A stretch of DNA of 64,000 nt from Hyphomonadaceae bacterium (GTDB lineage Bacteria; Pseudomonadota; Alphaproteobacteria; Caulobacterales; Aquidulcibacteraceae). A program made the translations under genes and the position numbers. The stretch lies in contig JAKFWO010000009.1 in the NCBI GenBank assembly GCA_021731815.1, positions 1-64,000 of the forward strand, written 5' to 3'. This document shows, piece after piece, positions 15,225-20,612 of this stretch. The notes below the pieces were generated by a model. That model was not told where the DNA came from, ran no database searches, and saw nothing but the letters and a program-made list of their open reading frames with translations. How positions within the stretch are numbered: position 1 is the first letter of the stretch; every line of letters begins with the position of its first letter.

Positions 15225-16595
15225 CTATTTCTTCCGGGCGGGAGCGAGAATATCGAGCGCGGCAACCGTCATCGCTTCCACTCCCGTGCGGATGGTCTCC
15301 TCTGGCGTGATCCGGAACAAGGGCGAATGGTGGGAGGCTGCACGCGGCAATTCTTCGCGCGGGGTGCCTCCGACATTGAAATAGACCCCCTTCACTCCGG
15401 ATTCAGGGGTGATGAAATAGGCGAAATCCTCCGCCCCCATGCCCTGGCGGGGCGTGTCGTCGAGGCGGGTTTCGCCAAAGGCCGCGACAAAGGCCCGACG
15501 CACCCGGCGCGCGGTTTCCGGATCATTGGCGGTCGGCGGGGTGCTTTCGCCAGTGGCCTTGACCACGGGCAGCAGATTTTCCGGCACCCCCAGCGCGCGC
15601 GCCGTGCCTTCCGCGATCCGCGTGATGCCTGCGAGCAATTGGTCGCGGGTTTCGCGGTTGTCGGCGCGCACGGTGAGCTGGAGATTCACTTCCTCGGGAA
15701 TGATATTGTGCTTGGTTCCGCCATGAATGCTGCCGACCGTGACCACGCCCGGCTCGAGCGGATTGATCGAGCGCGCGACGAGGCTTTGCAGACTGACCAC
15801 GATCTGGGAAGCGATGAGGACCGGGTCCACACCCTTATGGGGCGCAGCCCCATGCGCGCCGATCCCGCGCACCCGGATATCGACGGAATCCGAGCTCGAA
15901 TAGGCAAGCCCTTCCTCCACCTTGATCTGGCCGAGGGGCAGCAGCGAATTGACATGCAGCGCCAGCGCGTAATCGGGCTTCGGGAAGCGGGAATAGAGCC
16001 CGTCTTCCAGCATGCGCTTTGCGCCGCCGATCCGTTCTTCCGCCGGCTGGCCGATCAGCACCAACGTCCCGCGCCAGTCCTGTTTAAGCTCCATGAGCTG
16101 GCGGGCCGTGCCGACCAAAGCCGCGACATGGGCATCATGCCCGCAGGCATGCATGACCGGGCGCTCCACGCCCTCAATATCGACCTGGCGGGCTTTGGAG
16201 GCATAAGCGAGGCCTGAACGCTCCTCCACCGGCAGTGCATCCATATCGGCACGGATCAGCACAACCGGTCCGGCCCCATTGCGGGCGATCGCGACAATTC
16301 CGGTTCCGCCGACATTGGTGGTGACCTCAAAACCGAGATCGCGCAGATTTTTGGCGAGAATGCCCGAAGTGCGGGTTTCCTTCCAGGACAATTCCGGATT
16401 TTGATGGAGATCGGTGAAGAGCGGGCCGAGTTTTTCGCGATAATCGGCGGCCACCCGATCCGAGAGACCGGGGACGGGTTTGAGCCCACCGGAGTTTTTG
16501 GCCGGGGCAGCCATGGCGGCCCCGGTCATGGCCGGCGCGGCCAGGCCGAGCACCAGAGCCGCGGCCAAAAAGGGCGTGAAAACAGAGCGGATCAT
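15225..16595 (-). CDS. Periplasmic M20-family metallo-amidohydrolase/peptidase
   Basis: Zinc-dependent amidohydrolase (M20D branch: IAA-amino acid/hippurate hydrolase type) of 456 residues. A Sec signal peptide of about 30 residues ends ...AMAAPA, so the enzyme is exported. Metal and catalytic motifs are in order: LHQNPELSWKE, RADMDALPVEE, HACGHDAHVAALVG, QPAEERIGGAKRML (catalytic and metal glutamates), GAHGAAPHKGVDP in the dimerisation domain and FNVGGTP with SHHSPLF near the end. The preferred substrate cannot be read from sequence. The ribosome site GGAGG stands before ATG 16595. It lies alone on the minus strand, 95 bases downstream of efp. Confidence 0.92.
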   Translation of the reverse strand: MIRSVFTPFLAAALVLGLAAPAMTGAAMAAPAKNSGGLKPVPGLSDRVAADYREKLGPLFTDLHQNPELSWKETRTSGILAKNLRDLGFEVTTNVGGTGIVAIARNGAGPVVLIRADMDALPVEERSGLAYASKARQVDIEGVERPVMHACGHDAHVAALVGTARQLMELKQDWRGTLVLIGQPAEERIGGAKRMLEDGLYSRFPKPDYALALHVNSLLPLGQIKVEEGLAYSSSDSVDIRVRGIGAHGAAPHKGVDPVLIASQIVVSLQSLVARSINPLEPGVVTVGSIHGGTKHNIIPEEVNLQLTVRADNRETRDQLLAGITRIAEGTARALGVPENLLPVVKATGESTPPTANDPETARRVRRAFVAAFGETRLDDTPRQGMGAEDFAYFITPESGVKGVYFNVGGTPREELPRAASHHSPLFRITPEETIRTGVEAMTVAALDILAPARKK

Positions 16596-16689: not shown

Positions 16690-17256
16690 TCATTCCTTCG
16701 AGCGCTCGATATATTCGCGGTCGGCCACCCGAACGACGACCCGCTCGCCCGCGCTCATATAAGGCGGAACCAGCACGCGCACGCCGTTTTCGAGCGTCGC
16801 GGGCTTGTAGGAGGACGAGGCCGTCTGGCCCTTGACTGTCGGCTCGGTCTCGGCAATCGCCATGATCACTGTCTCGGGCAGGCTGACCCCGAGCGGTTTG
16901 CCCTCGAAGCTTTCGATCTCGACACTCATATTGGGCTGGAGGAAATCGATCTGGTCGCCGATCAGTTTTTTCTCCACATTGATCTGTTCGTAATTTTCGG
17001 TGTCCATGAAGACGAGAAAATCGCCATCCTCATAGAGATACTGATAGGTTTTCTGGTCGAGACGCAGGCGCTCGACCACATCGCTCGATGAAAAGCGCTC
17101 ATTATATTTCGCGCCGGTCTGAACATCGAACATTTCCACCTGGTTGAACGCGCGCAGATTACCCGGTGTGCGGATCTCGATCTTGGTCACCACAAAAATC
17201 TTGCTCTTGAAATTCAGCACCATGCCCGGACGGATGGCGTTGCCCATGACTTTCAT
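16690..17256 (-). CDS. efp: Elongation factor P, variant with Asn in place of the modifiable Lys
   Basis: EF-P enters the ribosomal E site and relieves stalling at consecutive prolines. Starting at ATG 17256 gives 188 residues, the canonical length, with the KOW-like domain I, and OB-fold domains II and III ending VKGQTASSSYKPATLENG...VPPYMSAGERVVV. The tip of domain I, normally PGKG with the lysine that is beta-lysylated, hydroxylated or left bare, reads TPGNLRAF: Asn33 occupies the lysine position. The surrounding residues are conserved, so this is a true variant rather than damage. No epmA, epmB or earP gene is near. Upstream open frame to 17319 lacks similarity. Confidence 0.95.
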   Translation of the reverse strand: MKVMGNAIRPGMVLNFKSKIFVVTKIEIRTPGNLRAFNQVEMFDVQTGAKYNERFSSSDVVERLRLDQKTYQYLYEDGDFLVFMDTENYEQINVEKKLIGDQIDFLQPNMSVEIESFEGKPLGVSLPETVIMAIAETEPTVKGQTASSSYKPATLENGVRVLVPPYMSAGERVVVRVADREYIERSKE

Positions 17257-17592
17257 GTCGGTCTCTTTGAAATGGAAAAGCGGTGCGCAGGGCACCGGAA
17301 ACGACGATTCAAGTCGCACATGTCCGATTTGGCGCGAAATGTCACGCCCCTTGCACCGGTCGCGATACGCATCCTGTGCCCGAGAATCAGGCGGAATGAT
17401 GAATCACCTGCCAGAATCCCGGGCTGATCTGCGCCATTTTGCTGCACTGCGGCACCAATGAATCGCCCTGATGCCAGGACTTTGCTCATCTTTTTCACCG
17501 ACACCGGAAATCGACGGTTGATCGAACCGGGGGATGGGTTTTGCAGCCGCTGGCGCAAGCGTGCCCGGCGATTCCATGGACAGGAGCAACGG

Positions 17593-18357
17593 ATGAAATT
17601 CGTCACCGTGATATCGACGCTGGCATTGAGTGCGGCGGCTTTCGCCGGGCAGGCTTTTGCGCAGACGGCACCGCCAGAAGCCGAAGAAGGGCCCGCGCTG
17701 CCCACGGTTTCGGCCTCTTTCGCCTTCACCAATGATTATGTCTTCCGGGGCATCAGCCAGACCTTTGGCCGCGTCGCCATTCAGGGGAGTTTCGACCTCA
17801 CCCATACGATCGCGGGGCTCCCGGTCTATGCAGGGGCATGGGCGTCCAATGTCGATTTCGGAACCGAAACCGATGTCGAAATCGATTTCTACGGTGGTCT
17901 CAAGCCGAAACTCGCCGGCCTCGATTTCGATCTCGGCTTTACCTATTTCTATTATCCCGGCTCGGATGCGGGCTTTGCCAACGGGCTTGATTATGTCGAG
18001 TTCAACGGGGGTGTTTCAAAGACGCTCGGAATATTTACCGTCGGTTCGAAAACCTCGATTTCGCCCGATTTCACACTCGATTCCGGACTGGGCGTGTGGT
18101 GACAGGGCACGGCGGTTGCCGCGGTCAATAAATGGCTGAGCGTGGACGGTTTGCTGGCCCGGCAATGGGTGCGCGAGAACGCGAATTTCGGCGCACCCGA
18201 TTATACGACCTGGGCGTTCGGTGCCACGGTCTCGTTTCCCGGAACCTTCCTCGAAGGCTTTTCGGTGGATGGCCGCTATCTCGACACCAATCTCGGGTCG
18301 ACCGCTTTCCCCTTCGCGGATTCGCGTGGCGTGGTCACGGTCAAGCGGGTGTTTTGA
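17593..18357 (+). pseudogene. TorF-type putative porin interrupted by one in-frame TGA
   Basis: The frame opens at ATG 17593 (AGGAG upstream), has a signal peptide ending AFAQ, then a beta-barrel of the TorF family: VSASFAFTNDYVFRGISQT near the mature start, alternating aromatic strands and a terminal F (VTVKRVF). At 18100-18102 a TGA follows a TGG codon; translation then continues in the same frame with barrel-like sequence to a normal stop at 18355-18357. Without the TGA the product would be 254 residues, the normal size. One base change (TGG to TGA) explains it. It may be a recent pseudogene, a sequencing error, or, least likely, readthrough. Confidence 0.82.
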
Positions 18358-19829: not shown

Positions 19830-20612
19830 TCAGCCGCGCGGTTCGGTCATCACATCCACCACGATGGGCTCGCCACGCTCACGGCGGTGGGAATGCGATG
19901 CCGGGGCGAGATGCGGTTGTGCCATCGGCACCACCCGGCCAAGGGCTTCGGCCTCTGTCTGCGGCGACACCGGATATTCGTCCGATCCCAGCACCGGTCC
20001 GGCTTCGAAGGTGATCGGGCGTTTGAGGCCCATGACCTCGCGCGTGCGCGCCAAAACATGCGGACCCGTGTCGATCAGCACTGCCATGGCCGTGCCCTCA
20101 TTATAGTCGTGGGGCAGGCCCAGATGGATAAAGGGCCAGCGCAAAGCCTGCAATCGCGGCAGAAAAAACGTGTCGCACACCAAAGTGTAATGGGTGAGTC
20201 CGCGGCGGACAGCGGCCTCGATCAGGCCCGCGGTCAGTTCCGCGCTGACGGCGCTGCGCGCGGTTCCCACCATCCGCCGCGCCTCGGGGGAGAGAAAAAA
20301 GCGGGTGATTTCATAAATTTTTGGGCCGGAGGGCACTTCGCCTTCGGCCACCAGATGCGCGAAGCGGTCGGCGAGCAAAGAACGCCGCTCGGTCGGGCAA
20401 ATGCGATAGGATCCGTCGACATCGCCTGCTTCATCCAGATGCAGCAGATAGATGGCGTCATCATCGTCATATTCGTCAATTTCGCGGCCATCCCCGCGAT
20501 CAAGATCGCGCCAGCCACGCTCCACGACGTAGAAATCATGGCGCAGACGAAACATCTGTTCGATCTGTTCGGCATAACGGGCACGATTGGCGCTGGTCAC
20601 CAGATGAATCAT
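19830..20612 (-). CDS. LuxI-type acyl-homoserine-lactone synthase
   Basis: Makes N-acyl-homoserine lactone from S-adenosylmethionine and acyl-ACP (or acyl-CoA). All invariant family residues are present at near-standard spacing: R24, F27, W34, D46, D49, R70, E101 and R104. The protein has 260 residues, against about 200 for typical LuxI; the extra is a charged, proline-rich C-terminus after about residue 205. A strong ribosome site (GGGAGGG) precedes ATG 20612. No luxR-type receptor gene lies in the window, so the receptor must be elsewhere or absent. It stands divergent to a glycosyltransferase operon with 186 bases between starts, and upstream of argJ on the same strand. The acyl chain cannot be predicted. 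Confidence 0.88.
   Translation of the reverse strand: MIHLVTSANRARYAEQIEQMFRLRHDFYVVERGWRDLDRGDGREIDEYDDDDAIYLLHLDEAGDVDGSYRICPTERRSLLADRFAHLVAEGEVPSGPKIYEITRFFLSPEARRMVGTARSAVSAELTAGLIEAAVRRGLTHYTLVCDTFFLPRLQALRWPFIHLGLPHDYNEGTAMAVLIDTGPHVLARTREVMGLKRPITFEAGPVLGSDEYPVSPQTEAEALGRVVPMAQPHLAPASHSHRRERGEPIVVDVMTEPRG

Follow-up and report, generated by a model that had tools for sequence, protein, structure and literature searches.

Elongation factor P (EF-P) relieves ribosomes that stall on prolines, and in most bacteria it has a chemically modified lysine at its tip. The EF-P encoded in the window, i.e. the whole 64,000-nucleotide stretch of DNA analysed here, carries an asparagine at the tip of its β3-β4 loop. 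Across the aligned sequences, this Asn tip is part of a coupled loop signature, T-P-G-N-x-R, found with all 36 Asn tips sampled. We propose that the loop around Asn33 is most likely used unmodified, with a probability of about 0.6, the coupled set of residues doing the job of the modified lysine or arginine. The window efp encodes the organism's sole and probably functional EF-P, of the Asn-tip type. This type is a documented minority rather than an unprecedented one, and is now seen in Alphaproteobacteria.

Overall structure of the window EF-P

The efp gene (16690..17256, minus strand) encodes a protein of 188 residues with an ATG start and a TGA stop, assigned as EF-P by domain profiles, an AlphaFold model and Foldseek; its translation (17256..16690, minus strand) begins MKVMGNAIRPGMVLNFKSKIFVVTKIEIRTPGNLRAFNQVE. 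Profile matches delimit, with approximate boundaries, three domains on the minus strand: the KOW-like N domain (PF08207, residues 6-60, 17077..17241), the central OB domain (PF01132, residues 69-122, 16887..17052) and the C-terminal OB domain Elong-fact-P_C (PF09285, residues 130-185, 16698..16868). All three exceed their Pfam cut-offs, indicating a complete three-domain EF-P, and the NCBIfam equivalog TIGR00038 ‘efp’ gives 212.1 bits against a cut-off of 185.8. The AlphaFold model has a mean pLDDT of 87.6 and a pTM of 0.64, at which the inter-domain angle is uncertain. Structural similarity search using Foldseek revealed that the model matches solved EF-Ps with E-values of 2.5e-19 to 9e-15 and has their three-domain tRNA-like fold. 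The protein was also scored as an EfpL/YeiP paralogue and rejected: it reaches 145-148 bits, below both cut-offs (216 and 264), and its loop has seven residues.

A single EFP_N match came from the window genome, an assembly of 2.53 Mb with 99.77% completeness and 0% contamination in which efp lies on a 104-kb contig. Hence no second canonical EF-P, which the first-pass annotation had considered as a possible carrier of the main function, was found in this genome. One EF-P was likewise counted in each of five Asn-type alphaproteobacterial genomes, and the Asn-type Alphaproteobacteria tested gave no second EF-P-like copy. As a separate observation, the acidobacterial and Phycisphaerales genomes with Asn-type EF-Ps at loci L069 and L097 carry a second EF-P-like protein (L134 and L135), one of which has the EfpL-like loop STPTARGGQT.

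In the leader of efp (17257..17316, minus strand), the purine-rich stretch AAAGAGA lies a short distance before the ATG and is a candidate weak ribosome-binding site, recognized by eye. Profile matches assign the downstream neighbour as an M20 family peptidase/amidohydrolase (15225..16595, minus strand) and the divergent upstream neighbour as a Gcw_chp family protein (17458..18102, plus strand). The window also encodes an autoinducer synthase family protein of 260 residues (19830-20612, minus strand; PF00765, 72 bits).

The Asn tip is coupled to companion residues

The β3-β4 loop (17140..17169, minus strand) reads T30-P31-G32-N33-L34-R35-A36-F37-N38-Q39 (ACACCGGGTAATCTGCGCGCGTTCAACCAG); Asn33 forms the tip, and Thr30 and Arg35 occupy positions -3 and +2, respectively. 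Residue 33 aligns with Lys34 of E. coli EF-P, in agreement with the Asn tip reported by the first-pass annotation. We compared 111 aligned EF-Ps, comprising 36 Asn-tip and 75 Lys-tip rows. Thr at -3, Arg at +2 and Lys, Leu or Trp at +1 occur in 36 of 36 Asn-tip rows, which are related and thus do not represent 36 independent events; moreover, the rows were gathered by similarity to the window EF-P, and the count may thus have missed less common Asn-tip loops. Among the Lys-tip rows, Gly occupies +1 in 75/75, and Arg at +2 and Thr at -3 each occur in 2/75. The window EF-P has the complete companion set proposed for the Asn type, i.e. T(-3), K/L/W(+1) and R(+2). Correction for shared descent on a loop-free tree left three strongly supported N/K contrasts, too few for significance, none of which contradicts the coupling. 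Residue 34 changed alongside the Asn in all three, and T30 and R35 in one to two. The longer LRAF segment, whose fixation the first-pass annotation had proposed to examine, is kept by both of the closest relatives and by the majority of the remaining alphaproteobacterial Asn types, two of which have LRSF.

Searching DNA for the pattern T-P-G-N-x-R-x-hydrophobic-x-Q gave matches in 13 of the 385 genomes sampled class-wide, five of these 13 being EF-P. Together with three more, these make eight Asn-type alphaproteobacterial EF-Ps with the TPGNLR string, from at least four families, namely those of the window, L032, L033, L034, L119 (G378), L155 (G186), L156 (G298) and L157 (G195). Asn tips are frequent among the Acidobacteriota, Planctomycetota and deltaproteobacterial loci sampled. 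In two previous surveys, Asn-tip EF-Ps account for 2.2%, in bacteria without yjeA/yjeK (Bailly & de Crecy-Lagard 2010, PMC2821294), and for 2.23% of 1166, with Pro invariably at -2 (2019 study, PMC6544042). The window EF-P shares these features: an Asn tip, Pro at -2 and a genome in which EpmA/EpmB were not found. The accessible portions of PMC2821294 and PMC6544042 contain no description of the T(-3)/R(+2) companions, and the literature searched, in which subscription journals were mostly beyond reach, gave no study that had tested the function of a naturally occurring Asn-tip EF-P.

Asn33 is conserved in the nearest relatives

The string TPGNLRAF is identical in Amphiplicatus metriothermophilus (75% EF-P identity) and in a Parvularculaceae MAG (71%). 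The Asn codon is AAT, AAC and AAT in the window, Amphiplicatus metriothermophilus and the MAG, respectively, and the flanking codons differ too. Pairwise dN/dS of efp among the three is about 0.17-0.21, figures that are approximate as dS is near 1. These ratios indicate that efp is under purifying selection in the window genome and its two nearest relatives. There is practically no chance that Asn33 is a sequencing error or the product of a pseudogene or contamination: independent genomes carry the same loop with different codons, the frame is full-length, and the 104-kb contig belongs to a nearly complete, uncontaminated genome. Altogether, a loop common to relatives with other codons and a dN/dS of ~0.2 argue that Asn33 reflects neither sequencing error nor decay. 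The first-pass description of an intact and conserved EF-P thus holds, given the full-length frame, all domains above cut-off and the loop kept in two relatives.

The window genome is the only member of its genus in the sample. We searched 36 other genomes of its family, whose EF-Ps are 39-48% identical to the window EF-P, and the loop is PGKGTPV, of the Lys type, in 12 of the 12 read.

Known modification enzymes do not account for the Asn tip

Because the EpmA/EpmB, EarP and YmfI systems target Lys or Arg, none of them would use Asn33 as a substrate. In profile searches of the window genome, the best EpmA match reached 24 bits, below the cut-off of 286.9, and EpmB had no match. The 24-bit EpmA matches are fragments of a single 619-residue frame, best read as the lysyl-tRNA synthetase LysS. 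EarP had no match in the window genome either, but the control genomes were equally silent. Of the enzyme search proposed in the first-pass annotation, the part on EpmA and EpmB thus gave a clear negative, whereas the silent control deprives the EarP part of its weight. EarP acts on Arg, and is thus irrelevant to an Asn tip. Three modified forms were accordingly tried and rejected: a lysylated EF-P, with Asn33 at the tip, EpmA below the cut-off and EpmB without a match; a rhamnosylated EF-P, with Asn and not Arg at the tip and Pro present at -2; and a 5-aminopentanolylated EF-P, with Asn33 and not Lys at the tip and the best of the SDR proteins in the window genome at 206.6 bits against the curated YmfI cut-off of 238.

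EpmA exceeds the cut-off in five of the five same-family Lys-type relatives tested. Seven Asn-type alphaproteobacterial genomes have no EpmA over the cut-off; the same negative came from G298, also of the Asn type, which was left out of the seven at a completeness of 57%. The divergent slot beside efp is occupied by EpmA in G033, a same-family Lys-type genome (locus L030, the one examined), versus Gcw_chp in the window.

Asn33 might alternatively accept an unknown modification, such as glycosylation, hydroxylation or deamidation, which would give the tip a long projecting group again. In several lineages, Lys- or Arg-tip EF-Ps are modified by unrelated enzymes (PMC6544042). EF-P modification has evolved on more than one occasion, and Asn is strictly retained within the type. 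Nevertheless, we regard such a modification as unlikely, because no candidate partner gene emerges from the neighbourhoods: efp lies beside the M20 peptidase and Gcw_chp genes in the window, a metallo-beta-lactamase fold at L032 and a 6-PGDH-like gene at L033, and these neighbours show no conservation across the Asn-type genomes inspected. In addition, the coupling to Arg at +2 suggests a built-in solution. By eye, a suhB-like gene sits beside efp in the Asn-type loci L034 and L119. Sequence does not decide between the two options raised by the first-pass annotation, but a modification-independent mechanism is plausible and is better supported than a different modification.

Origin of the loop

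Trees and AU tests were built with the loop columns removed. In these loop-free trees, the Asn-type alphaproteobacterial EF-Ps fall within the alphaproteobacterial EF-Ps. The string RTPGNLRAF is identical in Acidobacteriota and Phycisphaerales, which would fit horizontal transfer of the whole efp from Acidobacteriota, Planctomycetota or deltaproteobacterial lineages. However, the loop-free backbone is alphaproteobacterial, and grouping with the Asn types of the other phyla sampled was rejected, with p-AU of 0.0001 for all eight and 0.0003 for the window group, leaving whole-gene transfer very improbable. With this transfer rejected, TPGNLRAF would have arisen by convergence on a different backbone, or a short loop would have been exchanged. 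Gene conversion of the loop only, or transfer within Alphaproteobacteria, may be the source. A single clade of the eight alphaproteobacterial Asn EF-Ps has a p-AU of 0.25 and appears in 46% of bootstrap trees; the tree tests may be compatible with a single origin of the loop in Alphaproteobacteria or with more than one.

EF-P types also alternate within families of the window's order, even inside one genus code (g22). For example, G037 and G060 have a more divergent EF-P beside epmA, while their respective relatives G049 and G048/G056 have the PGKGGAF/PGKGPAY types; of these relatives, G049 was tested for EpmA and lacks it. This alternation suggests repeated swapping of efp, or of efp together with epmA, within the order.

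A proposed modification-independent mechanism

By homology, the window EF-P would bind between the E and P sites of the ribosome and reach toward the peptidyl transferase centre. We propose that Thr30, Asn33, the bulky residue 34 and Arg35 together replace the modified Lys or Arg of other EF-Ps. In this arrangement, Arg35 probably presents a positive charge to the P-site tRNA, at its CCA end, or to 23S rRNA, residue 34 may stiffen or reorient the loop, and Thr30 and residue 34 would together set it. There is precedent for EF-P function without modification: in Thermus thermophilus EF-P, the tip Arg32 contacts C75 and C2064/C2065 of 23S rRNA (cited in PMC2821294), and EfpL functions although its tip is unmodified (PMC11611912).

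The E. coli K34N variant alone is inactive (PMC6544042). This fits an Asn that needs its companion residues, and it also indicates that the Asn itself may contribute little. The same inactivity is compatible with another explanation, in which the window EF-P has lost or reduced its Pro-Pro role and is kept for a secondary one, the lineage coping by ribosome changes, ABCFs (YfmR/Uup) or few polyprolines. B. subtilis tolerates efp loss (PMC6613710) and ABCFs overlap with EF-P (PMC11381351). However, the full loop and the domains are strongly conserved across several families, and ValS of the window genome retains PPP (motif PPPNVTG), so that a need for EF-P-type activity in principle persists in this organism; we therefore give this explanation little credence. 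As a side observation, ValS of Rickettsiales MAG G063 and G378 (L142 and L143) is of a different type, which shares ~28% identity with the ValS of the window genome and 68% between the two, and retains PPP (DTPPPTVSG).

Returning to the unmodified loop, a bolder and more tentative proposal, which we hold to be possible but short of even odds, is that TPGN[KLW]R represents a catalytic loop that has evolved repeatedly and works without modification. The place of the modified tip would be taken by Arg at +2, positioned by the bulky +1 residue and by Thr at -3. Transplanting the whole loop, and not Asn alone, would then make E. coli EF-P independent of EpmA. Accounts of EF-P usually describe a dependence on a long, modified side chain at the tip. 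A single-copy Asn-tip EF-P with strict companions and no EpmA/EpmB found offers a concrete way into the chemistry needed at the peptidyl transferase centre, and the missing companions could explain, or not, the inactivity published for K34N.

Comparison with known EF-P systems

The window EF-P resembles the Asn-type EF-Ps of the literature (PMC2821294 and PMC6544042), which also have an Asn tip, Pro at -2 and a genome without the EpmA/EpmB pair; the window member differs in its alphaproteobacterial host. EfpL/YeiP shares the EF-P fold and needs no tip modification, but its loop is extended and has an Arg tip (PMC11611912).

Outside the Asn clade, the closest backbones, with 50-56% identity to the window EF-P, belong to alphaproteobacterial Lys-type EF-Ps with PGKGGAF or PGKGPAY loops. 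Compared to the window EF-P, they have a Lys tip, Gly at +1 and no Arg at +2, and nearly all those sampled likewise lack EpmA over the cut-off. More broadly, many alphaproteobacterial Lys-tip EF-Ps (PGKGGAF, PGKGPAY and PGKGGAY; L035-L038, L056, L057 and similar) come from genomes without EpmA over the cut-off. By contrast, the PGKGTPV type of the window's own family is the same gene in sister genera, yet is EpmA-linked (5/5 tested) and more distant in sequence (39-48% identity).

Among solved structures, Corynebacterium glutamicum EF-P (6s8z) matches the window EF-P model in Foldseek with a TM-score of 0.83. We take this protein to be an unmodified Lys-type EF-P, and thus a precedent for function without modification.
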